DNA of 58,017 nt from a virus. Both the position numbers and the translations under genes were made by a program. Shown here one piece after another: positions 1,296-14,556 of this stretch (positions are counted from its first letter, which is position 1; each line of letters opens with the position of its first letter). Under the pieces are notes generated by a model. That model saw only the letters and a program-made list of their open reading frames with translations, had not been told where the DNA came from and made no database searches. Location of the stretch: positions 1 through 58,017 of IMG/VR virus record IMGVR_UViG_3300044993_000766; one strand, 5' to 3'.

Positions 1296-4200
1296 TTAGC
1301 CGCCGCCCCCACCGCCGCCATCACCACCCCCACCGTCGCCTTGTGGTCCTTGTGCCGGCGACATTGAGCGCGCGCCCATCCGCATCGTCGGCCCCTTTGG
1401 ACCATCATCGTCCTGCTGCATCGCAATCTGCTGCGCCTGCTCCATCGCATGCTCGCGTGCTTGCATCACAGCCTGGGAGACAACGGACGACTGTTCAAGC
1501 GACTGCGATAGCGCCTGCTCCACGTTAATCGGAACCCGTCGATGCGCGGGGTCATCCAATGAGCCCTGTACGACAAAGAGCGTATCTGGGCGTCCTGTCT
1601 GCGGGTTAACCTTGCCGGGCACGATGTGGTCGTAGCTGGTTATGTTCCATCCTTCGGCCGCCAACGACATAGCCACAACAGATGCACCTAGCTTTTGGCG
1701 CTCATGCTGGGTCAGGCCACCCATGCCGGGGGCAACCTCGATCTGCGACAGAACGTTTTGCGCCCGTAGATACATGCCGTGGGCCGCATGCTTGGGTTCT
1801 GTGACGAGCGGGCCAGCCGACGATGCTGGCTCGGAGGTCGGCGTGTGTCCATGACGCTGATCGTCGGTCGGCTTGTGGTCCTCCTCGCGCTCGTCCCGCA
1901 TCGATGGGGGACGGATTAGCGCCGGATCGGGTGTAGTCGCAATTATCAAAGTAGAGGGCGCATCAATGCGCACGACCGGCTCCGGCTCACGCTCCTTGTC
2001 GTCTTCGACACTACGCCCACCTGAGATGGAAGGGCTGACAGAACGCGGTGCAATCACCGGTTGTGGCGCATCCGGTTCGGACTTTGGGTCGATCAAGAGC
2101 GAGCGGATCGGCGTTGCCTGTTCCGCGCGTTCGCGTTCGCGCTGTGCGGCTAAAGCTTGATCCACAGCATCGCGCGTTCCTTGATCGGCCACCCCGGTTG
2201 CGGGAATGCCATGCATCGTCTGAAACTGGCGAATAGCGTGCTCGGTTTCGGGACCATAGCGGCCATTCTGCGGGATCTGCTCTCCATCAGGGCCACGATA
2301 GCCCTGCCGATCAAGGCGGTATTGCAATAGTTCGACTGAATCGCCGCGGTCGCCCAAGCGCAATGCGTTCGAGTCAGGGCCAGTCGGTTTTTCAGCCGCG
2401 TCTACGCGGGTCTGTTGTGGAGGGATGTCATCGGAACGCGGAGTCAGGGAATCGGGCTGGCGTTCCGGGGTCGCAGATGTCGCTGGTGTCCCATCATGTC
2501 CGATGGTCCGCATAGAAGTCCGTCGGTCCTCGTCTAGCACCTGGGTCTCGTCTGCCCCCCCCTGTTGGGGGGTGTTGCTTTCGGCCTCCATGCGTTCACG
2601 TTCCAGTCGAGAGGCACCATCTTCATGCGCGCTCTGCGCGAGCGCCAATGCGGCCGTTGCCACGAGTGGCACTTCCTGGGTAACGGCATCCTCCGGCATG
2701 CGTTCAGGCCGATGTGTACGCTCCGGCTCGCCCTGAATAGCACGCACCGCACCATTTTCCATCGTCATCCCGCGTGAAGCGACCGCTAGCGTCGCCGCTT
2801 GAACTGTCTCCTGCGTCTGTTCCTGAGACAGGCCTAGCCGGTTCGCTTCGCGCGCCGCCTGCTCGCGTGCGCCGCGCTCCTCCGGGGTCGCCAGTGCGAC
2901 TGCTCGCTCAAATGGCGCTGGGTACGGCGTATCCTCCGTTCTCGCACGCACATCGGCGAGCGCGCGATTGATGTCCTCTGGCGTTGTCACAGCGACGATA
3001 CGCACCACGCCGTCGGCATTCCGGTGGATATGATGAATCGGGCTGTCGGGGCTGTACTGCCCGCTCTCGTCTGTCCCCAGCACCGTCACTGTATTGTCGG
3101 GGCCTATCCCTGCGGCGGCTCTGGTGCGCTGCACAGCAAGGTAACTGGCCTCGAACAGTTCAGGCCGAATCTCACGGTTGATGTCGTGATCCAGGTACGC
3201 TGTGCGTAACAAGGCGCGATCCGCCTGCTCTGGCGTCGGTGGTTGCCAGGACGGCATCCGAGCCAGTTCTCGCTGGTGATCTTGTAGCGCGGGCAGCATA
3301 CGATCACGGGTCAGTTCCAGCTCTAGCGCACGTTGTGCATCTGCCGGTGCGCCGTCATGTATCCATGTCCCTTGCGTATCGCGCCGGTAATGCTTTCCGT
3401 CGGAGGCTTGACGCAGATCGGGGTCAAGTGCGGTCGTCACGGCCGCAGGCATGGTATCCGCTGGTGAGGGAGTCTGGTCGTAACCATAAGCCTTATGCCC
3501 TCGCTGATATTGGGCTGCGATTTCGGCCGAGCTTGCCCTCAGGTTTGCGTCGATGACCCGTACAGCCTGCGCACTCAACTGAGCAGCACGCTCGGGATCG
3601 GCCACGGTACGCTCGACATCGACTGGCATGCGTTCGTTGTCGAGCTTCGTTACGATCCAACGCTCCCACTCACCGCTATCGGCCTTGTAAGTCCAGTTCG
3701 CCGGCGTCTGCCCCAAACTGCTGCGATCTTGTGCATTTGCGGGCTGCACGAAAGGATCAATCGGCTCGGGCACTTTGGCGATGGCCAGTTCCACGGCTTT
3801 TGCACTCGCCAGAGCACTCAACTCGCGGTGCTTGTCGGGCGGGGCCGCAAAAGATTGCTCTTGCGGAATATCGCGACCGTCATCCAGCAAGTCACCACGC
3901 AAATCCTGACGAATCCACTGCTTGCCCGTGTACTTCCAGTTCACGCCCTCACTGGCGATATTGGTGATTCCGTACTGTTGCCACCAATCCACCGCGCGCT
4001 CGGCAGCGGTACCGAATAGGTATGCCTCGCCGAGCACGAGCAGCGCTGTGCCGCCCGTGCCCGTGCCTAAAGCCGCAGCGGTGGTGGTCGCAGCAGCGGC
4101 GCCAACGACAGCGCCCGCGGTTTGAGCGCCTTGGCGCAGATATGCGTCGTTCCCTGCGGTTTCGTTGCCGAGTGTATTTTTGAATACCTCTGCACGCTGG

Positions 4201-6479
4201 TGGGTCTGCGCCCATTCATAGCCAGTCAACCCAACCTCAAGCAGTACACCACCTACCGCCGCGCGGCGGATTCGGGCTCGCTCGATTGCTTCTGGCTCAT
4301 AGGGCAGCAATTCCACCTTCGCCTCACGCGACAGTCGGGCCATCAATCCTTCAACACCTGCCTGTTCAGGTGGGCCAACGTGCGGCGTCCGCTCCACCGG
4401 GCGTGCCAGCGTTTGCAGGCGTTGCGTCATTTCACTGGCCGGTTCGGGCGCCTGCTCTGGGGTATGCACCACCTGCCCGGGCCGCACAATATGGGTGTAG
4501 TCGGGCACCAGTTGCTTAACTTCGCCCGCAGGCGTACTGCGGTCTATCTTCGGCCAATGGCGGAACAGGGCATTGCCTTCTGTAGAATGGTGAATCACGT
4601 CCATTCGGGGGTCGATGGTTTCCGGTACCCGTTGGAAGATCGGTTCACCCGTCAATGCATTACGGAAATCCGTCATCAGGTTCAGGCTGCGGTCGCCCAA
4701 GCCGCTGCGGAAGTAACTCCCCGCGAGGTCCGAATGCGCGCCTGCCACTGTGACGCTCAAGAACCGTTTATCCGCAGAGTGCCCCTCGGGAATGATGCGG
4801 TCCACCGGGAACAAGCCGCGTTGCTCGTCCGCCGCATTGATTTGGAAACCTGAGACTACCGAGGGCGGCAGACGGCGGTCAAAAAAATCTTCCAGGTAGC
4901 CCGTCGGTACCGGGTCGTACAGGCCGACCGACATGGGCACTTGCCCAGGCGTGATGTGATGGCGCGTATATGTCCTGACCGTATTGCCGTGCTCGTCGAG
5001 GGATTCGATCGCGCTGCTGGGGTCGGGGAAGCCGCGCTCATGGATCATCCGGGCCAGCAACGGTACGGTGCTGGCACCCCGGCTGAAGCCTTCGAGATGG
5101 ATACTGATCCGGGCCTGCGGATCCGCTTTGAGTATCTGGTTGATGCGCTCTGCTAACTCCGCATACATATCTTCGGCGCGCGCCAGCGACGTGCGCCCCA
5201 GCGCACCGTCCACGGTATTTTCGATGAGGTTGGTCTGTGTGCCTGGGCCGGCACGATATACGAAATCAACATTCGTGAGTCCATCCCTACGTAAATCTCT
5301 GATTTGTTCACGCAATTTCGCGACATTCGTGGCATGCAAGGGATCGCGATCCACATCGTTGCCCGTGCCATCCAGCAGACCGAACAGCATGTAAGAATGC
5401 CGGTCGTTACGATCCCACAGCGCCGGCACTTTGAATTCGCGCATCTGCGCAGCGGCGCGGTCGTAACTCTGGAGCTGCTCGCGGCTTGCGATGTCGTGCG
5501 GCACATCATCATAGGGCAGCCCATCTGCGTCCAGCCTGATCCGGGTTTTCCCTGACGCCGCATTCGCTATCTTGTCATCCAGCGCATCGAGTGTCCTCGT
5601 AATTGTGGACCTGGGCGCGGATAGCAGATTCGCTGGTGACGAGTCAGGCGACGGTGCGCGCAAAGCATCAAGATGGCGCATGCCTGCTTGCGCGAAATCG
5701 CTGGGTGGGGCCATCCGGTCGGCGAGCGGCCGAGTGACGACCGTGAAAGCCGGCGGCTGCGCAGTCAGAGCCGTCCCAGTAAAATAAGCGCGGCTATCGA
5801 TCAATAATTGCCCTGCATCGCTATATAGCGGTTTTCCGGCATCGTTGACGGCCACATTCAGCTTGCCCACATTCTCATAAGAACGCGCCTGCACAGCCTC
5901 GAATGCAGCGTTGCCACCGCGGTCGGCTTGAAGGTTCGCCAAACTGATGCGGTCGATGTCTTCGATGGTGGTGACACGCTCGTTCGCCAGCACGCGCGGA
6001 AGCTCGCTCGCCCCGAACACGCGGTCCGGCTGGGCGAAGCTGGTGATGGTCCGCACCTCACCCACCGTCTCGGCCGCGAACTTGGCCGAAACGATGTCCC
6101 AGGCGCCGTCCGCGATGCGCTTGCCGTCCGGCCCGATCGTCCCGAACAGGAACTGGTTCGCTTTCGTTCCACTCTCCAGCGGGTCGCTTTCGAAGACGCG
6201 CTCCAGCGTCTCGATCAGTTGCTGATTGCGGCTTCTTTCCGAGTACACATCCAGAAACTTGAATGCTTCGGTCTTGTCGAGAACGCGCACGTCTTCCCCA
6301 GCACTCAGCATACCGCTGATGATTTCGGTCGATGCGATCTCCGGTGCTAACCTGCCGCTGTAGAGAACAGTGACAGACCCCTGTGCCTGAACATCCAACC
6401 TGCTGATGAGCGCGCGCAGTTCCGCTTCCGATTTGATGCCCGGTAATTCGGCATTAGCCTCGGCCGACGAAATATCCAT
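1296..6479 (-). CDS. X-T4SS effector: Tle1-like (DUF2235) lipase with peptidoglycan-binding and XVIPCD domains
   Basis: A 1727-residue modular protein. Residues 1-300 are unassigned. A DUF2235/Tle1-type alpha/beta-hydrolase follows (about 365-620), with a GFSRG nucleophile elbow (Ser466), Asp522 in YDPVPTG and His582 in AGAHSD forming a plausible triad. A Gly/Ala-rich hydrophobic stretch lies near 770-840. A PG_binding_1 domain lies near 1368-1440 (LRLGDRGDSVELLQ). The C-terminal part (about 1560-1690) has the XVIPCD look: HGMYLRAQ, QIEVAPGMGGLT, then Gln-rich helices; the extreme C-terminus is poly-Gly. XVIPCD recruits effectors to VirD4 of the Xanthomonas killing T4SS. Inference: an antibacterial phospholipase delivered to the periplasm of neighbours. 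Start ATG 6479 has GAGG 7 nt upstream. Two genes immediately upstream are candidate immunity genes. Confidence 0.85.
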   Translation of the reverse strand: MDISSAEANAELPGIKSEAELRALISRLDVQAQGSVTVLYSGRLAPEIASTEIISGMLSAGEDVRVLDKTEAFKFLDVYSERSRNQQLIETLERVFESDPLESGTKANQFLFGTIGPDGKRIADGAWDIVSAKFAAETVGEVRTITSFAQPDRVFGASELPRVLANERVTTIEDIDRISLANLQADRGGNAAFEAVQARSYENVGKLNVAVNDAGKPLYSDAGQLLIDSRAYFTGTALTAQPPAFTVVTRPLADRMAPPSDFAQAGMRHLDALRAPSPDSSPANLLSAPRSTITRTLDALDDKIANAASGKTRIRLDADGLPYDDVPHDIASREQLQSYDRAAAQMREFKVPALWDRNDRHSYMLFGLLDGTGNDVDRDPLHATNVAKLREQIRDLRRDGLTNVDFVYRAGPGTQTNLIENTVDGALGRTSLARAEDMYAELAERINQILKADPQARISIHLEGFSRGASTVPLLARMIHERGFPDPSSAIESLDEHGNTVRTYTRHHITPGQVPMSVGLYDPVPTGYLEDFFDRRLPPSVVSGFQINAADEQRGLFPVDRIIPEGHSADKRFLSVTVAGAHSDLAGSYFRSGLGDRSLNLMTDFRNALTGEPIFQRVPETIDPRMDVIHHSTEGNALFRHWPKIDRSTPAGEVKQLVPDYTHIVRPGQVVHTPEQAPEPASEMTQRLQTLARPVERTPHVGPPEQAGVEGLMARLSREAKVELLPYEPEAIERARIRRAAVGGVLLEVGLTGYEWAQTHQRAEVFKNTLGNETAGNDAYLRQGAQTAGAVVGAAAATTTAAALGTGTGGTALLVLGEAYLFGTAAERAVDWWQQYGITNIASEGVNWKYTGKQWIRQDLRGDLLDDGRDIPQEQSFAAPPDKHRELSALASAKAVELAIAKVPEPIDPFVQPANAQDRSSLGQTPANWTYKADSGEWERWIVTKLDNERMPVDVERTVADPERAAQLSAQAVRVIDANLRASSAEIAAQYQRGHKAYGYDQTPSPADTMPAAVTTALDPDLRQASDGKHYRRDTQGTWIHDGAPADAQRALELELTRDRMLPALQDHQRELARMPSWQPPTPEQADRALLRTAYLDHDINREIRPELFEASYLAVQRTRAAAGIGPDNTVTVLGTDESGQYSPDSPIHHIHRNADGVVRIVAVTTPEDINRALADVRARTEDTPYPAPFERAVALATPEERGAREQAAREANRLGLSQEQTQETVQAATLAVASRGMTMENGAVRAIQGEPERTHRPERMPEDAVTQEVPLVATAALALAQSAHEDGASRLERERMEAESNTPQQGGADETQVLDEDRRTSMRTIGHDGTPATSATPERQPDSLTPRSDDIPPQQTRVDAAEKPTGPDSNALRLGDRGDSVELLQYRLDRQGYRGPDGEQIPQNGRYGPETEHAIRQFQTMHGIPATGVADQGTRDAVDQALAAQRERERAEQATPIRSLLIDPKSEPDAPQPVIAPRSVSPSISGGRSVEDDKEREPEPVVRIDAPSTLIIATTPDPALIRPPSMRDEREEDHKPTDDQRHGHTPTSEPASSAGPLVTEPKHAAHGMYLRAQNVLSQIEVAPGMGGLTQHERQKLGASVVAMSLAAEGWNITSYDHIVPGKVNPQTGRPDTLFVVQGSLDDPAHRRVPINVEQALSQSLEQSSVVSQAVMQAREHAMEQAQQIAMQQDDDGPKGPTMRMGARSMSPAQGPQGDGGGGDGGGGGGG

Positions 6480-6488
6480 GTGCGGGCC

Positions 6489-6932
6489 TCAGAACTCGAA
6501 CGACACGATCGTGTTAGGAATCTGCTTCCTTGCGCCGTCGTAGCCCCTCGCAGTCAATGCTTCCTTGAGCGTTTCGATGACTTGGCGCAGGCGCACGTCG
6601 TCGAGGTCGTCTGGATAGATTTGGACGATCTTCCCCCAAGCCACGCGATACGGCGATTCGCTTAGCGTTTTCGACCCGCTTGCCCTGTCCACCTTGACGA
6701 AAAATTTTTGCCCATCCATCTCCAGCAGGAATTCGATCCAATACTCCCCATCGCGCGCTGGATTGGCGCCGCGTATTTGGCGGAGGATGATGTTCCGCTC
6801 CCGGTCGATGGTCCATTGCGGGGCGTAATTGTCCGGCAACTTCATCTCGCCCGGATACATGGCCAAATATGACTTGGCAAGCCCATATGTCTCGATGTCC
6901 TCGGCGGACACATATTCATTGACAAACGCCAT
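6489..6932 (-). CDS. Hypothetical protein, candidate immunity protein to the X-T4SS effector
   Basis: 147 residues, no signal peptide or membrane segment, rich in charged and aromatic residues (YWIEFLLEMDGQKFFVKVD). I do not recognise the family. The ATG at 6932 has GGAGAG about 5 nt upstream, so the longer reading to 7070 is not needed. It ends 10 nt before the effector start and lies 17 nt downstream of the 272-aa gene, so the three are very probably one transcript. In characterised X-T4SS cassettes the immunity gene usually sits immediately upstream of its effector, which is the basis for the immunity suggestion. Against it, most X-Tfi proteins that neutralise periplasmic effectors carry a signal or lipoprotein sequence, and this one does not. 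Confidence 0.7.
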   Translation of the reverse strand: MAFVNEYVSAEDIETYGLAKSYLAMYPGEMKLPDNYAPQWTIDRERNIILRQIRGANPARDGEYWIEFLLEMDGQKFFVKVDRASGSKTLSESPYRVAWGKIVQIYPDDLDDVRLRQVIETLKEALTARGYDGARKQIPNTIVSFEF

Positions 6933-6948
6933 CGTTGCTCTCCGCAGG

Positions 6949-7767
6949 TCAAAATGTCTTTGTCCACGCCAGCTTAAGGTCGCGCAGACTATCGCTGTTC
7001 CTGACCGCCGGGTCACGGGGCTGCTTAAGTTCCACCAAACCGCGCATGTAGACATTGATCGTGCGGTCATTGACTTCGAGAAGGATCTCTACACGTCGCG
7101 AGCGATCGTCCAAACCCCACCCATCCTTGACCTCATGCTCTTGCGCGTTATGCAGAACCAGGCGATCGGGGAATATCTTCTCGAAGTTCAGCTTTGTGCT
7201 CCGCGCAACTCCATCCATGGCCGTCCACCAAATTTCAATGATCGGCGAGAAGACATCACTCGGCATGATGGCGAACCCTGCGGTCCAGTCGTCTTTCCAG
7301 TCGGGGCTCCTGGGTTCGCCGGACGAACTGAATCGGTTCCTTTGGGAAATATGCTGTTGGTTTATGAATATGACCGAGCATTCAAGGGTGTTATAGCATC
7401 TGGCGTCAAAACTAAATCTGTCGAACCTCAACGGCCACGGCTCGCGCGGCACTCTTTTCTTGAACAGTTTTCCGAGAATAAACATTTCAGCACCCTCTGG
7501 ATCGGTCGGAATTTCGTCTACGGCTAAAGCTGTCTGCACAGGAGTCGTTCGCTTTGGCAGGTTGGGCTTGCGCTTGGTCTGCACCGGCACGCCGCCAGCA
7601 GGCATTGGGCCATTTTCGCGCAAAGTCCTTTCATTAGCGATCTGCATGTCCCGAAGAAGCTGGAGGTCGTGATGGGTATCCTTTTTGCGCAAAGCCGAGG
7701 GCCTGCCCAAGTCTGACTCACCACTGGATTCGTTTGGATTCATCTGTACATCAGCCTGCGAACGCAT
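6949..7767 (-). CDS. Hypothetical protein, second gene of the effector operon (possible immunity/accessory)
   Basis: 272 residues. Residues 1-95 are polar, charged and low in complexity. The C-terminal ~175 residues look folded, with strand-like segments (ECSVIFINQQ, IIEIWWTAMDG, RVEILLEVNDRTINVYM). The PSDVF...IEIWWTAM pattern loosely recalls DUF2931-type proteins, but this is weak. No signal peptide. First gene of the three-gene effector cassette, 17 nt upstream of the 147-aa gene. Start is ATG 7767 or ATG 7743; neither has a strong Shine-Dalgarno sequence. An antisense frame on the plus strand is also open for 232 codons, but the minus frame fits the operon and has the better protein composition. 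Confidence 0.65.
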   Translation of the reverse strand: MRSQADVQMNPNESSGESDLGRPSALRKKDTHHDLQLLRDMQIANERTLRENGPMPAGGVPVQTKRKPNLPKRTTPVQTALAVDEIPTDPEGAEMFILGKLFKKRVPREPWPLRFDRFSFDARCYNTLECSVIFINQQHISQRNRFSSSGEPRSPDWKDDWTAGFAIMPSDVFSPIIEIWWTAMDGVARSTKLNFEKIFPDRLVLHNAQEHEVKDGWGLDDRSRRVEILLEVNDRTINVYMRGLVELKQPRDPAVRNSDSLRDLKLAWTKTF

Positions 7768-9240: not shown

Positions 9241-9504
9241 ACAATTTTTCCCTCCGCATGCTTATACCCGCATCCTGCTTTTTTAGGCTCTTATTCTGTA
9301 CTTAATCACAATCTTGGACCTAGTTCATTTTGCACACCGCATCATGCTGCGACCCAGGGCTAAAAGCGTCCAGCAACACCATGGTTAAGGAAACAGGTAT
9401 AGCACAATCGCTAGCGCCACCCTTGCCCAAAACAATACCAAATCCGCGATGACTTCAATGGTAGTTCTTTCGTCTTCAAAGCGTCCACGACGGAGCGAAA
9501 ACAA

Positions 9505-9903
9505 TTAGTGGTTCCTCCTGCACGGGACTGGTTCCCCACGCTGAATCCGTTGGTAGATTTCTTCACGATGCACCGGCACGCTACGCGGGGCCTCGACGCC
9601 CACCCGCACCTGCCGCCCTCTTGCGAGGGCCGTCAGACCGCGCTTCGAACAGCCGTTGATACACACGACGAATTCTTCGCCAATGCGGAGCGACTCGCCC
9701 AGCAGAAGCGAAATCACATAGCGTCGATGGCGGCGCCCGTACTCTGAAGGCTCCACCAACACGTCGGCATCGTCCGTGACGGTCAACGCGGCAGGCGCAG
9801 CCAGCGCAACAGTGACGTGGCCCCGCACTTTTGAGCGGATGGTCAGCCGCACGCCATCACCGATGCGGATGCTTTCGCCCACGCGGCGCGTGAGGATCAA
9901 CAT
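9505..9903 (-). CDS. Tandem CsrA: single-chain two-domain carbon storage regulator
   Basis: 132 residues made of two fused CsrA domains. Residues 1-50 match the canonical N-terminus almost exactly (MLILTRRVGESIRIGDGV), with AP at 36-37 as in E. coli CsrA, but position 44, the key RNA-binding Arg, is Asp. The second domain (about 61-123) has lost the LTRR strand (residues 61-68 read RYVISLLL) but keeps a perfect C-terminal half: VRVGVEAP then VPVHREEIYQRIQ, with VHRE at 111-114. CsrA binds RNA with beta-1 of one subunit and beta-5 of the other, so this chain keeps one complete composite site and has a dead second site. ATG 9903 has AGGTG 8 nt upstream. It is the last gene of the array, and its start overlaps the 45-aa ORF. 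Confidence 0.9.
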   Translation of the reverse strand: MLILTRRVGESIRIGDGVRLTIRSKVRGHVTVALAAPAALTVTDDADVLVEPSEYGRRHRRYVISLLLGESLRIGEEFVVCINGCSKRGLTALARGRQVRVGVEAPRSVPVHREEIYQRIQRGEPVPCRRNH

Positions 9904-10034
9904 AGCGCACCCCACCTACTGCTGTATGAGACACTTTGCTGCCAACAGGGCGCGCACCGGCTAGCGCAATCTTTCACTAGACCGAACACGCTACCGCTTC
10001 CGTTTTGATCTACGATCAGCGCATCGATCTTCAT
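9897..10034 (-). CDS. Small ORF (45 aa) translationally coupled to the tandem CsrA gene
   Basis: Begins MKIDALIVDQNG and ends in a Cys-containing tail. An excellent Shine-Dalgarno sequence (AAGGAGA) precedes ATG 10034 by about 7 nt, better than that of most neighbours. Its TGA (9899-9897) overlaps the first codons of the tandem CsrA gene (ATG 9903) by 7 nt, a standard coupling arrangement. No family recognised. It may be a real small protein or a leader whose translation controls the CsrA gene. It lies in the 183-nt gap between two CsrA-like genes, which would otherwise be empty. Confidence 0.5.
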   Translation of the reverse strand: MKIDALIVDQNGSGSVFGLVKDCASRCAPCWQQSVSYSSRWGALC

Positions 10035-10086: not shown

Positions 10087-10461
10087 TCAAGCCTCCGAGT
10101 TCGCTGCTGAATGCCGCTGCTGCGCTGAGTCGCCACGACGAACGCTGCGGCCCGGCGCATCAATCTCCAATACGAAGCTGCGCAACACGGTCGCACCCAC
10201 CACAGGCGGCTGCCGGTCGATGCGTACCGTCATGCCTTTGACCCAGAACGTTTCGCCTGCGGCCAACCACAGCACGCCCACCACGTTCCCATGCGAGTCG
10301 CAATCGCTCTTGACGGTGTTCGACCGAGGCTCCTCGCCATCCGCGCACTGCTGTGCCGTGACCATGACGAGGCAGCAGTCAGCGTCTTTGCCAATCACCA
10401 CCATCCGCACGTCATCGCCGATCCAGACCGGTTCGCGCACGGCCACTTGCATGCGCACCAC
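10087..10461 (-). CDS. Diverged tandem CsrA-like protein (array member 2)
   Basis: 124 residues from a GTG at 10461 (AGAGG 6 nt upstream). From that start the first 16 residues align without gaps to CsrA positions 1-16 (VVRMQVAVREPVWIGD, with E10 and I14-G15-D16 kept), which decides the start. The second domain (about residues 60-110) has LAAGETFWV, VRI, and a FVLEIDAPGRSVRRGD segment matching CsrA QVRIGVNAPKEVAVHREE, including the AP. The RNA-contacting residues are gone: positions 6-7 are Val-Ala and the VHRE element is SVRR. Inference: a CsrA-fold protein that no longer binds RNA in the usual way. It sits 93 nt after member 3 and before the 45-aa ORF. Confidence 0.65.
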   Translation of the reverse strand: MVRMQVAVREPVWIGDDVRMVVIGKDADCCLVMVTAQQCADGEEPRSNTVKSDCDSHGNVVGVLWLAAGETFWVKGMTVRIDRQPPVVGATVLRSFVLEIDAPGRSVRRGDSAQQRHSAANSEA

Positions 10462-10554: not shown

Positions 10555-10860
10555 TTAGCGCTTGCCGGTCGCGACCGCCCTGCGTTTGGTCACGGGCCGG
10601 CGGCCCAGGGCGCTACGCGCGACCGACCGCGCCGGCCGCTTTGGCGATGCGGGCACACTGTCGATGAGCAGCAGCAAGCGATGCGTCGCAGCGCCTGCAC
10701 CCAAGGCGACCGGCAGCGGCTCGCCGTTACTGCCGCACAGGCTGGCTTGCTCGGGCAGGGTGAAGTCGATCGCCCAGCCACCGACCAAGGGCTGCACACG
10801 GATATCGAGACCATGCAGCATCGCGGGGATGGAAGGCGCTTGCGCGCGACTACGGGGCAT
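10555..10860 (-). CDS. Small protein, possibly a very degenerate CsrA-like member of the array
   Basis: 101 residues. ATG 10860 has AAGGA about 8 nt upstream and overlaps the end of the preceding array gene by 11 nt. CsrA similarity is faint: a beta-rich core (GGWAIDFTLPEQASLCG) and GAGAATHRLLLLIDSVPAS, which parallels GATVLRSFVLEIDAPGRS of the neighbouring member. The C-terminal 30 residues are basic (KRPARSVARSALGRRPVTKR). I infer membership of the array from position and this local resemblance. It could equally be an unrelated small basic protein. Confidence 0.55.
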   Translation of the reverse strand: MPRSRAQAPSIPAMLHGLDIRVQPLVGGWAIDFTLPEQASLCGSNGEPLPVALGAGAATHRLLLLIDSVPASPKRPARSVARSALGRRPVTKRRAVATGKR

Positions 10861-11281
10861 GCAGAGGTTCCTTCTGTCGTAGATGAAGAAGCGGTACACA
10901 GGCGGCCGGGCGCACTGGGGGCCTGGGGCGCAGGCGCGCGCGCAGCCGCGCATGGCGCGCAATGGCCAGCTCTTGCGGGGCATCTACGCAGACCCGGTAC
11001 GGGCGCAGCAAGCTGGCCGCAGTAGGCATCGCGAGCGTCTCAATCCGCAGATACGTCGCACCCACCCAGAAGCCAGCACCAGGGGCGAGGGCCAACACCG
11101 AACTGATCCAGCCCGCATCGCCAGGGGTGCTGGCGCGAAACCCGCGCTCGACGACCAGGGCGCAGTCCCAGGCGGTTTCGACAAACACGTAGATCAACCC
11201 CGCCGCGCACCCTGTCACTTGCAGACAAGCGCCGACGCCCAATTGCAAGCGTTCCCCTGCGGCGCAGTCGATCGCGCCCAT
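10850..11281 (-). CDS. Diverged tandem CsrA-like protein (array member 4)
   Basis: 143 residues. Residues 1-24 align without gaps to CsrA 1-24 (MGAIDCAAGERLQLGVGACL then QVTG), keeping Met1, Ile4, Gly9-Glu10, Leu12, Gly15, Val22 and Gly24. The second domain (about 60-115) shows LALAPGAGFWVGATYLRI and then YRVCVDAPQELAIARH, closely parallel to VRIGVNAPKEVAVHRE. Positions 6-7 (Arg-Arg in CsrA) are Cys-Ala and the VHRE Arg is not aligned, so RNA contacts look lost. The tail (about 115-143) is Arg/Pro-rich. ATG 11281 follows the upstream stop directly (TGAATG) with little Shine-Dalgarno sequence of its own, implying coupling to member 5. Confidence 0.7.
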   Translation of the reverse strand: MGAIDCAAGERLQLGVGACLQVTGCAAGLIYVFVETAWDCALVVERGFRASTPGDAGWISSVLALAPGAGFWVGATYLRIETLAMPTAASLLRPYRVCVDAPQELAIARHARLRARLRPRPPVRPAACVPLLHLRQKEPLHAP

Positions 11282-11719
11282 TCACGGCCCACTCGAAAGT
11301 TGCCGGCGCCCGTCACCGTCCATCCGCGACATGGGCAGCGCGGTCGCAACGGGCGCCGGCAGGAGGGCAGGGTTGGAGGCAACAGGCTGCGCAGCATCGC
11401 CCGCACGGCGCTGCGTAATGCCGATATGAAGCCAGTTGTCGCAGTCCGCGGCCAGCGGCACCAGCTCGCCGGGCAACCAGACCTGAACCTCGAACGGCCC
11501 GAGGGTGAACCTGCGGAGGGCTTGCAGGGAAAACAAATAGGTCCAGACGCCCACCGTGCCGGCAATGGGGGTGACAGGCGCACCGTCCAGCGTGAGGCGG
11601 GTGCCGGCAGGCGCGGTCGCGCCCAGAACCACCCTCTCCCCCTGCCGGCGGTGGATCGCGATTCGAATGTTCTCACCGAGGCGCAGCGCGCACCCGATCT
11701 GGCATGTCTCGACCCGCAT
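11282..11719 (-). CDS. Diverged tandem CsrA-like protein (array member 5, first gene of the operon)
   Basis: 145 residues. Residues 1-44 align without gaps to CsrA: MRVETCQIGCALRLGENI with Gly9 and Gly15, then Gly27, Val30, Gly33 and Ala36-Pro37 (VVLGATAP) at identical numbering. The RNA-binding positions differ: Arg6 is Cys, Arg7 is Gln, Arg44 is Leu. A second, weaker domain follows (YLFSLQALRRFTLGPFEV, then NWLHIGITQRR near 95-106), and then a Pro/Ala-rich tail. ATG 11719 has GGGAGG 6-7 nt upstream. It is the promoter-proximal gene of the leftward array and is divergent from the S24-type regulator. Confidence 0.7.
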   Translation of the reverse strand: MRVETCQIGCALRLGENIRIAIHRRQGERVVLGATAPAGTRLTLDGAPVTPIAGTVGVWTYLFSLQALRRFTLGPFEVQVWLPGELVPLAADCDNWLHIGITQRRAGDAAQPVASNPALLPAPVATALPMSRMDGDGRRQLSSGP

Positions 11720-11847: not shown

Positions 11848-12510
11848 ATGAACAAGTACACCGAGGCTTTGGTCGCCGCGATGGGCAAGAGACGCATCCG
11901 CAGCCGGACGCTTGCTGCGGAAGTCGGCACGATCAGTGAAAACGCTATCGCGCAATGGCGCAGCGGCCGGCGTCCGGTCCCGGTCGAGTACGCACCCAAG
12001 CTGGCGAAGTTGCTTGGCGTACCGCCGCAGTCCATCAGCGAATCCTACGATCGACTTCTGCAATCCGGTGTCATCACGTCTGCGGAGGGCGGCCACGAAG
12101 CATGGGCAAATCCGCCTGCGGGCCATGCAGTCATTGAGCGATTGATAGGGTTTGGCCGTGCGGACGAACAGGAGCGGCTCTGGCTGCCGGAACTCATGCT
12201 GCGGCGGGAATTGGGCGCGACACCGATCGAGAATGTCCGTTGGGTCACACTACATTCGCGGACGATGGAACCGGAAATCAAACGCCATGCCGTGGTGCTG
12301 GTGGACATCAGCGCCACCCGGCATGAGGAGGTCGTCGATGGCCGACTGTACGCCTACTCGCTACTCGGGCGGTCAGATATTCGTCGGATCACGATTCGTC
12401 GGGATGCCTGGATACTGATCGGCGACAACGAAGAACGGATCAAGACCAGCGTACCTACCGCGGACTTGCCGGAGCTTCACTTGCTTGGCATGGTCATCGG
12501 CTGGCTATGA
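11848..12510 (+). CDS. CI/LexA-like transcriptional regulator with degenerate S24 domain
   Basis: 220 residues: an N-terminal helix-turn-helix (about 1-65; SENAIAQWRSGRRPVP is the recognition region) and a C-terminal LexA/S24-like beta domain (about 130-215). In active S24 repressors the catalytic serine lies in G-D/E-S-M; here the matching motif is SRTMEP, with Thr139 in place of Ser, and the usual catalytic Lys region reads DIRRITIRR. Both catalytic residues therefore appear to be replaced and RecA-stimulated self-cleavage is unlikely. ATG 11848 has AGGA 8 nt upstream; the longer in-frame reading to 11704 lacks support. Divergent from the CsrA array and followed by the MASE1 gene. Likely role: local repressor not directly tied to SOS induction. 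Confidence 0.8.
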   Translation: MNKYTEALVAAMGKRRIRSRTLAAEVGTISENAIAQWRSGRRPVPVEYAPKLAKLLGVPPQSISESYDRLLQSGVITSAEGGHEAWANPPAGHAVIERLIGFGRADEQERLWLPELMLRRELGATPIENVRWVTLHSRTMEPEIKRHAVVLVDISATRHEEVVDGRLYAYSLLGRSDIRRITIRRDAWILIGDNEERIKTSVPTADLPELHLLGMVIGWL

Positions 12511-12615: not shown

Positions 12616-14136
12616 GTGGATTACCCCAATGGAATGAGAATCGCGAAAGGACTGGCGCTCGCCATCGGCTATTGCATTGCCTATCTCGTACTTCGCTATT
12701 TCTCATATGACCAATGGTTTCTTCCGGCAGGATTACGGGCGGTCTGTCTTTTCTTTTTGCCCTATCGATATTGGCCACTTGTTTTCATAGGAGATGCCGC
12801 CGCAGTGATGTATGGGCGCATCCCGGCAGAAACCGAAAAAAATCAGATCTGGGTTTATCTTGGCCCATTTATGCTGATTGCAGGGACCTCAATTGCACCA
12901 TATTTACTTCGAAAAAGGCTGGCGAACGCACAAGCGATTGCGCATAGATTGCCGATTGCGGCCGCATGTATCTCGGCATGGGGCGGCATTTGCACAGTTG
13001 CGTTAAACGCGACACTTGGAGGTCCAGATGAATACGCTACGTTGGATTTTTTTATAACAAAACTCTTTGCAAATTATTTGGGCGCACTGCTGGGGCTGCT
13101 GCCATTTCTGATTTGGATCAATAGGCACCACTATATAGGACAACTTAAAAAAGCGGCACGAAATATTGTGCTTTCGGCCATATCGATTGCACTCATGTTT
13201 GCCTACTTGGAATACTGGCACACAGGTAGCGAAGTAGCGAGAAAAGCGGTACTAATGCTGATGATCTGTCCAGCGTTGTTTCTCACTTACTATCACGGGT
13301 GGCTAGGCGCAGCATTCGGCGTCATTCTTGTCAATATCGGCATCGCACAGACTATGACCTATATGCGAACTCCCGGTATTCCAGTCCCATACGACGAAAG
13401 CGTTTTTCTCGCTCAGATCGGACTATCCATCGCAGCGTCCGCTTTTCTGATCCTGGGAACGAGAATTACGTCCCATTACGAGAATGCGATTGAATCAGGT
13501 GTCGCAGAAAAAAAAGCCAGGAAAATATCGCGCATAGCACTACTCTCGAACGAAGAAGACGCCCGAGACCAAGTTATTTGCATGGCACAGCTACATTTAC
13601 TTCTGGATGAAAAACAGGAAGAACTTGTCCACTGGCTCAAGGCTAACGGCAAACATGAGGAGGCTTTCAACCTCAAAAGCAGTGGTGCGCAACGGCGTAA
13701 GAAGTTCCATGAGAATGCCTTGGCGGTTTACCCCATCGGCATCGAAGAAAAGGGCTTATTCGCCGTCATCCACTCGCAGACCTTCGAGGATCGATGGACA
13801 AACGGTATACCGATGGCGATCAGTCTGGATAAAGGCGACCCGAAGAAACTCTCCATTGAATTGCAAGTCGCTGCATACCGCTGCCTGTGTAGCGCGGTTG
13901 TGCTGATGTGCGACTGGAGGCCAGAAGAGCTGCACATGCGCGTTCGTGTCTGGCAGACAACCTTGCACCGAGGCGTCTATTTCTCAGTGTCAGCATTCCG
14001 CCCAGGAGAACCACAAGCGACTCAGGCGGGCGCTGCTTCCTCTTTGTATCTCGACGCAAAGGTCAGTGCGCATGGCGGCATTCTGCGCCACCATGCGCAC
14101 CGAGTTAGCGTCCTGCTTGCGGAAGAAATGACTTAG
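12616..14136 (+). CDS. MASE1-type integral membrane sensor-like protein
   Basis: About 506 residues from GTG 12616 (GGAG 5 nt upstream); ATG 12634 is an alternative. Roughly eight hydrophobic segments fill residues 1-295 and match the MASE1 sensory-domain pattern (RYFSYDQWFLPAGLRAVCLF, YRYWPLVFIGD). A charged linker (about 295-330) and a soluble C-terminal region (about 330-506) follow. No GGDEF, EAL or HATPase motif (NxxxN, GxG) is visible in the C-terminal part, so output is unknown; MASE1 is normally joined to kinases or diguanylate cyclases. The gene is visibly less GC-rich than its neighbours, with A/T-ending codons common, pointing to separate acquisition. It is 105 nt after the regulator and could be in its operon. 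Confidence 0.75.
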   Translation: MDYPNGMRIAKGLALAIGYCIAYLVLRYFSYDQWFLPAGLRAVCLFFLPYRYWPLVFIGDAAAVMYGRIPAETEKNQIWVYLGPFMLIAGTSIAPYLLRKRLANAQAIAHRLPIAAACISAWGGICTVALNATLGGPDEYATLDFFITKLFANYLGALLGLLPFLIWINRHHYIGQLKKAARNIVLSAISIALMFAYLEYWHTGSEVARKAVLMLMICPALFLTYYHGWLGAAFGVILVNIGIAQTMTYMRTPGIPVPYDESVFLAQIGLSIAASAFLILGTRITSHYENAIESGVAEKKARKISRIALLSNEEDARDQVICMAQLHLLLDEKQEELVHWLKANGKHEEAFNLKSSGAQRRKKFHENALAVYPIGIEEKGLFAVIHSQTFEDRWTNGIPMAISLDKGDPKKLSIELQVAAYRCLCSAVVLMCDWRPEELHMRVRVWQTTLHRGVYFSVSAFRPGEPQATQAGAASSLYLDAKVSAHGGILRHHAHRVSVLLAEEMT

Positions 14137-14154: not shown

Positions 14155-14556
14155 TTACTCCGCGGGCCGAACGATCCAGCGATCTTGATCCGACTGCCGG
14201 TAGAAGATGACCTCAATCTTGTTGTCCCGATACACCATGCGGCCTGTGACCGGGGACTGCTCATCGGTCTGAATTACCCAAGACGTTGCGTCGATTTGCA
14301 GGGCCGAAACACGCACCCCGCTCACTGCGTTATTGATTTCCATATAGCGGACGCCCTGCCATGTGGCCTCCTGCTTCTGCCAAGCAGGGTCGCGCACCAA
14401 ATCAACGACGTTGGGCATCGTTGACGCCGAACCGCTCGTTACTTTTGGTGCATCACCGCCAGTACCTACTTGCGCATGGGCAGAAGCACTGGTGAACATC
14501 GTCGCAAGCAGCAGAACTGCAAGTGCGATCGCATATCGGAAAGCCGGAATGGCCAT
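14155..14556 (-). CDS. Small exported protein of unknown function
   Basis: 133 residues with a clear Sec signal peptide: FRYAIALAVLLLATMF followed by SASAHAQ, so signal peptidase I cleavage is expected after Ala-His-Ala near residue 28. The mature part of about 105 residues is beta-rich with a repeated Val-Ser-Ala/Arg-Val pattern (SGVRVSALQID, GRMVYRDNKIEVIFYR). The family is not recognised. ATG 14556 has a near-perfect AAGGAGA 6 nt upstream. It converges with the MASE1 gene (18-nt gap) and lies beyond a strong inverted repeat at the end of the late operon, so it probably has its own promoter. Confidence 0.8.
   Translation of the reverse strand: MAIPAFRYAIALAVLLLATMFTSASAHAQVGTGGDAPKVTSGSASTMPNVVDLVRDPAWQKQEATWQGVRYMEINNAVSGVRVSALQIDATSWVIQTDEQSPVTGRMVYRDNKIEVIFYRQSDQDRWIVRPAE

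Follow-up and report, generated by a model that had tools for sequence, protein, structure and literature searches.

How many RNA-binding sites are left in a phage-encoded CsrA in which two domains are joined in one chain, and what might such a protein do? The question was raised by a gene in a virus record from IMG/VR, which was analysed here as a stretch of 58,017 bases (referred to below as the window; the features are listed in Table 1). The sequence-only reading of this gene had described its product as two fused CsrA domains, each of which had lost a different half of the RNA-binding surface. The need for two CsrA sites in regulation has so far been addressed mainly through engineered one-site dimers. 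A natural, conserved single-chain CsrA with one site would make the two-site question directly testable and would provide a tool whose sites are separately mutable in cis.

Table 1. Positions of the features discussed in the text, numbered along the window.
Feature	Positions	Strand	Basis or remarks
Virus record	1-58,017		58,017 bases, IMG/VR; window = positions 1-58,017 of IMGVR_UViG_3300044993_000766
Putative antibacterial effector, 1727 aa, downstream cargo	1296..6479	-	Tle1-like phospholipase, PG_binding_1, XVIPCD
39-aa small ORF, single TM (predicted)	9385..9504	-	TTG start immediately follows the fused csrA stop
Fused single-chain CsrA, 132 aa	9505..9903	-	two PF02599 matches, homologue alignments, AF2 model
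Retained half-site, domain 2 beta-5	9556..9576	-	residues 110-116, PVHREEI
Lost half-site, domain 2 beta-1	9700..9720	-	residues 62-68, YVISLLL
Lost half-site, domain 1 beta-5	9766..9786	-	residues 40-46, LTVTDDA
Retained half-site, domain 1 beta-1	9880..9900	-	residues 2-8, LILTRRV
45-aa ORF	9897..10034	-	strong SD; overlaps the fused csrA start
Gamma paralogue	10087..10461	-	aligned with beta; start uncertain, 10461 GTG or 10452 ATG
101-aa ORF in the array	10555..10860	-	ORF and SD
Beta paralogue	10850..11281	-	I-D-C-A replaces LTRR; Arg at the domain-2 R44 position
Alpha paralogue	11282..11719	-	E-T-C-Q replaces LTRR; domain-2 R44 lost
cI-like repressor (HTH_3 and peptidase S24-like)	11851..12510	+	Pfam; S24 just below its cut-off
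MASE1 membrane protein	12616..14136	+	PF05231 4.8e-21; no output domain recognised
133-aa protein, signal-like N-terminus	14155..14556	-	conserved next to the MASE1 gene

Sequence anatomy and predicted fold of the fused CsrA

The fused csrA gene starts with an ATG at 9903, with AGGTGGGG upstream, and its stop codon ends at 9505. The product was matched by PF02599 in two stretches (E 5e-22, 78 bits against a curated cut-off of 27), and its sequence profile matched the CsrA structure 2jpp (E 5e-21). Residues 1-46 form domain 1, which aligned with E. coli CsrA without a gap, and are followed by a linker (about residues 47-61) and by domain 2 (residues 62-121). The PF02599 matches and the alignment to E. 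coli CsrA confirmed a two-domain fusion with its halves as previously described. In domain 1, L4, T5, R6 and R7 are present, while H43-R44 is changed to T43-D44. In domain 2, when aligned on the GES motif, LTRR is replaced by I64-S65-L66-L67, and V111, H112, R113, E114 and E115 correspond to residues 42-46 of CsrA within an intact VHREEIYQRIQ. The earlier statement that the domain-2 motif reads SLLL was out of register, since SLLL occupies the positions of T5 to V8, but the loss of both arginines held.

The RNA-binding surface of CsrA is formed by beta-1 and beta-5 from opposing monomers, and L4 and R44 are critical for it (PMC7652899). Since beta-1 and beta-5 of opposite subunits share one site, the two retained halves belong to one composite site and the two lost halves to the other. 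The published geometry therefore agrees with the sequence-only reading, which had placed the retained halves in the same site.

A model of the protein was built by AlphaFold2 (AF2) with seven sequences (pLDDT 79.6, pTM 0.72). Prediction of the monomer, which had been suggested as a check, returned the CsrA strand order twice (strands at 2-7, 11-14, 18-26 and 29-37, then at 59-67, 71-74, 78-82 and 98-104) with a single helix at 114-121, domain 1 being helix-free. The confidence dropped, however, at the end of domain 2, where it averaged below 70 around the C-terminal end, and the beta-5 strands were assigned weakly. When the model was compared with the PDB by Foldseek, no CsrA chain was among the matches. 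Comparison with BFVD matched the model, at a probability of 1.00, to short CsrA-like proteins of phages, among them a 'carbon storage regulator' of 114 aa. What the model contributes to the fold assignment is thus the strand order and the BFVD matches.

By sequence and predicted fold, the protein belongs to the CsrA family. It shares with the CsrA/RsmA/RsmE homodimer (E. coli CsrA; PDB 1y00, 2jpp) the strand order and L4/R6/R7, and at one site also V42-H43-R44-E45-E46. Whereas the homodimer consists of two chains with two identical sites, the fused CsrA is a single chain with one site and one helix. It therefore lacks one CsrA-defining feature, the two composite sites, and replaces another, the homodimer. 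We consider it probable that the protein is a pseudo-dimer formed by a single chain, in which one RNA site is complete.

Conservation of the one-sided pattern

The first homologues found were four full-length viral proteins (L003-L006, 53-63% identical) and one protein encoded in a Lysobacteraceae MAG (L079). When 395 Lysobacteraceae genomes were searched with a profile, 15 loci were found in 10 genomes, with a maximum of four per genome; these 15 include the L079 gene again. Altogether, 19 further members were found in viral and Lysobacteraceae genomes, with pairwise identity as low as 29%. Residue counts and column entropies were obtained from 19 sequences with a complete N-terminus; the 20th sequence (L265), probably a remnant because its N-terminal strand is missing, was left out.

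In beta-1 of domain 1, R6 was present in 19/19 sequences, L4 in 16 (F in three) and R7 in 15, with G, Q or H in its place in the other four. In beta-5 of domain 2, all 19 sequences had V111, R113 (the counterpart of R44), E114 and E115. R44 of domain 1 was replaced in 18 of the 19 (by D in 8, C in 6, Y in 2, and V and L in one each), and a single member, L273, had Arg there. R6 and R7 of the domain-2 beta-1 were lost in every sequence, with L or V in the first position and L, M or H in the second, while Y62 was invariant. The mean column entropy was 0.67 bits for domain-1 beta-1 and 0.51 bits for domain-2 beta-5, the retained strands, against 2.00 bits for domain-1 beta-5 and 1.29 bits for domain-2 beta-1, the lost strands; the overall value was 1.36. 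For close pairs (L003, L004, L005), dN/dS of the fused csrA was 0.10-0.13. A complete second site was regained in 0/19 members.

For the family as a whole, the RNA-site residues L4/R6/R7 and R44 are thus complete at one composite site only. The claim that a single set of RNA-site residues is intact was borne out, and this state proved to be deeply conserved. Random variation of the losses between the halves, which had been named in advance as an outcome that would count against it, was not seen; the same halves were lost across the 19 sequences, except for the domain-1 Arg of L273. In a single sequence, the chance that both losses fall in the same site is one half. It is the conservation across the family, and not the single sequence, that makes the one-sidedness meaningful. 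On the evidence of these alignments, selection visibly maintains the remaining RNA site.

A 114-aa tandem CsrA, L007, is encoded in an unrelated prophage. Its domain 1 retains LTRR but has no beta-5 at all, and its domain 2 retains IHREEIYQRIQ. L007 looks like a second, independent instance of a one-sided tandem CsrA; it has no linker, is found without the gene cassette described below, and probably arose by a separate fusion. The BFVD match A0A6J5RUQ1 (114-aa 'Carbon storage regulator', uncultured Caudovirales phage) resembles a tandem CsrA in length and, as judged by the match only, in fold. Both proteins are shorter than the fused CsrA. Searches of phage and plasmid records gave partial matches only, and those with names were annotated as ordinary CsrA.

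The window encodes an integrase, a terminase and a DarB-like protein of 4724 aa. A relative of the terminase with 81% identity was found in 1 of the 395 sampled Lysobacteraceae genomes, which suggests that the host of the phage belongs to this family of Xanthomonas-like bacteria. Because no further fused-CsrA member was found in order-wide and class-wide genome samples apart from the seed genome, the family looks confined to Lysobacteraceae. A canonical csrA gene was found in 9/9 carrier genomes searched and also in genome G006. When locus L161 (record G003) was compared with the window, the terminases were 96% and the DarB proteins 88% identical, whereas the csrA arrays were only about 60% identical. 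By these identities, the array is either swapped between genomes or faster-evolving than its surroundings. A tRNA-Met (CAT) was predicted by ARAGORN within the phage genome (53131-53203, minus strand).

The paralogue array, the cassette and its cargo

The fused csrA is the last gene of a minus-strand array of diverged tandem CsrA paralogues, with alpha, beta and gamma upstream of it. In hhalign comparisons with the fused family, alpha scored a probability of 93.4% (E 2.5e-7) over columns 1-84 only, and beta one of 95.4% (E 1.9e-8) over 114 columns. Alpha also matched phrog_5527 (E 2.3e-4) and has orthologues at about 60% in L003-L005; on plasmids it had no match. The beta orthologue in L003 was matched by PF02599 (E 1.5e-4). 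An AF2 model of beta (pLDDT 80.7) has its strands in the same order as the fused CsrA, and its two best BFVD matches are also among those of the fused CsrA. Gamma was found in the window alone among the loci seen.

None of the three paralogues has an intact LTRR, and all six aligned beta and gamma sequences have Arg at the domain-2 R44 position. Cys occupies position 6, an Arg in functional CsrA, in all alpha (8/8) and all beta (5/5) sequences compared; gamma has V there. The dN/dS values of 0.2-0.4 for alpha and beta indicate that they are under constraint. A redox or metal role is possible for this cysteine (window 10850-11719, minus strand; L277-L285). A candidate CsrA site over the alpha start, GCAGGATGC, is kept in four loci; it was dropped because most Shine-Dalgarno sequences contain GGA and the ANGGA core was not present.

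Small open reading frames accompany the array. An ORF comparable to the small TM ORF follows the fused csrA in 10/14 loci examined, and in the closest three loci (L159/L160/L161) its pN of 0.011 against a pS of 0.14-0.38 reveals strong purifying selection. The 101-aa ORF had no match in Pfam or PHROG, and an ORF in L006 resembles it by eye. A homologue of the 45-aa ORF was absent from the compared loci.

The cI-like repressor gene is also divergent from the array in L160-L162, in L079 and in 9/10 chromosomal loci, and the MASE1 gene adjoins it in every locus seen. The order of array, repressor, MASE1 gene and the gene for the small exported-looking 133-aa protein is kept in L160-L162 and in 9/10 chromosomal loci, where alpha and/or beta are variably present. 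Distant MASE1 homologues (about 31%) occur on Xanthomonas plasmids, with no annotated csrA gene nearby. In L003 (4399-5088), a LuxR-type response regulator takes the place of the repressor upstream of the array, which recalls Gac/Rsm wiring.

Downstream of the array in the window, the 1727-aa protein was matched by PF09994 (2.7e-14), PF01471 (1e-14) and PF20410 (6.5e-13), the last of which, the XVIPCD, scored 49.6 bits against a cut-off of 24.9. We regard it as a putative phage-borne X-T4SS effector. Two ORFs upstream of its gene (6489-6947 and 6949-7767) are likewise conserved in L162 alongside it, and one may be its immunity gene. In L279, the array is followed by an XVIPCD protein and an RHS protein. 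Directly downstream in the chromosomes of L282, L284, L285 and L286 lies a gene for an RHS protein (1605-1701 aa), one of these proteins having a deaminase domain, and in L280 and L281 housekeeping genes (trpG-like) follow, so that effector cargo is not universal. These RHS or housekeeping neighbours place the cassette also outside complete phages.

In X. citri, CsrA represses the X-T4SS virB operon via its 5'UTR (PMC7286519), which provides a precedent for linking CsrA to such effectors. In the leaders that lie downstream of the array, ANGGA motifs were not consistently enriched.

Proposed mode of action and alternative explanations

For the fused CsrA we infer RNA binding, pairing within the chain, a single-site mode and a set of targets. 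Domains 1 and 2 would pair with each other as the subunits of the homodimer do, which would leave one composite RNA site, made of domain-1 beta-1 and domain-2 beta-5, and a dead site on the side of the junction. Such a protein would bind GGA sites singly, such as one that overlaps a Shine-Dalgarno sequence, and would not bridge two sites on one RNA. Heterodimers with host CsrA would be unlikely because the dimer interface is satisfied internally, and the protein would act uncoupled from host CsrA. Its operon also encodes diverged tandem paralogues without the same site, and the gene of a cI/S24-type repressor lies opposite. Most probably, the fused CsrA would serve as a dedicated post-transcriptional repressor for the genes of its own cassette, the downstream effector cargo included.

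Taken whole, the proposal that an intrachain pseudo-dimer binds one GGA and represses its own cassette and effectors, with neither bridging nor mixing with host CsrA, seems to us evenly balanced between right and wrong. A wider version is more doubtful: that the mobile cassette of cI/S24-type repressor, MASE1 protein, single-chain CsrA array and TM peptide controls interbacterial effectors, that its CsrA is obligately single-site and non-bridging, and that the site-less Cys6 paralogues are its sensors or antagonists. If the cassette reading were true, it would show antibacterial effectors to be controlled post-transcriptionally by a phage-borne regulator, in the same family where host CsrA already holds the X-T4SS in check.

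The fused CsrA might instead be an antagonist of host CsrA, as the sequence-only reading had suggested as one outcome. It would sit on individual GGA sites of host mRNAs or of CsrB/RsmZ-like RNAs without bridging them, and by competing with host CsrA or titrating it would shift host physiology. Its GGA-site residues are intact, and canonical csrA coexists with it in every host genome examined. Moreover, engineered one-site CsrA dimers repress glgC incompletely (PMC7652899), and the plasmid protein RsmQ interferes with host Rsm regulation (PMC9928087). However, the gene travels with the repressor, MASE1, paralogues and effectors, also outside complete prophages, as suits a local regulator, and nothing in the sequence indicates host targets. 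The cassette of repressor, paralogues and effectors points to a dedicated local regulator at least as well as to blocking of host CsrA, and we consider an antagonist unlikely.

A complete site needs domain 1 to meet domain 2, which is possible between chains as well. If the chains were swapped or built a higher oligomer, each domain 1 would pair with domain 2 of the other chain, a two-chain dimer would have two intact sites, bridging would be kept, and the fusion would mainly fix the pairing of subunits. The linker of about 15 residues is compatible with both arrangements, although it is expected to favour pairing within the chain, and AF2 modelled the single chain with good core confidence. 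We judge such an oligomer to be quite improbable.

As the cause of the pattern, the sequence-only reading had invoked selection for a one-site CsrA. This is not required, as the lost strands flank the fusion junction. They are both ends joined by the fusion and together form one site; any reshaping of the junction therefore destroys this site but leaves the other one intact. From this topology, we infer that the one-site state can arise without selection for one-sitedness. The second site could even have been lost neutrally, with the protein used as an ordinary CsrA at single-site targets and no adaptive meaning to the loss. The exact position of the lost strands on either side of the junction fits this account, as do the deletion of the same strand in the apparently independent tandem L007 and the single-site target known for canonical CsrA (PMC7652899). 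It has to explain, on the other hand, why the state persisted through extensive divergence and gene-family expansion without return of the second site in any of the 19 members. Purely neutral decay, which overlaps with the favoured intrachain pseudo-dimer and is poorly separated from it by sequence, has in our estimate a small chance of being the whole explanation. That alpha, beta and the fused CsrA are adaptors, for instance for MASE1 or the small TM peptide, with the retained site serving as a protein surface, would agree with the constraint on alpha and beta despite the loss of LTRR, with their Cys6 and with the reported binding of CsrA by CesT (PMC5864733), but it is precisely the RNA-contact residues that are near-invariant in the fused member, which makes this idea highly implausible.

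A close parallel to the proposed single-chain, one-site protein is found in the engineered one-site CsrA dimers, which were made by introducing R44A into one subunit (Mercante et al. 2009, reviewed in PMC7652899) and likewise have one intact and one dead composite site. Those dimers are a laboratory construct, whereas the fused CsrA is natural, covalent and conserved, and in its dead site neither half is left. The CsrA fold is also naturally rearranged in RsmN/RsmF of Pseudomonas aeruginosa (PDB 4kji, 4k59; PMC3791407), which is, however, a reported dimer of rearranged topology with no fusion. CsrA is carried on mobile elements also in the case of the RsmM phages, JC1 gp47 and RsmQ (PMC7366521, PMC9144972, PMC9928087); these are, in contrast, single-domain proteins of about 60 aa. 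The csrA of JC1-type phages, which lies between the portal and capsid genes, was ruled out as the same gene by its architecture and position. A full-text literature search, which mostly did not reach subscription papers, found no report of a tandem or fused CsrA.

Two further arrangements of csrA genes were observed. In L250 (3336-3999), two csrA genes are adjacent, the second with TIARY at the LTRR position and with HR of beta-5 kept; judging from these residues, the pair is possibly an obligate heterodimer, a step before fusion. In L030, L174 and L186, canonical csrA is accompanied by csrA-like phage ORFs that carry an insertion behind LILGRRVGEK, several per genome.
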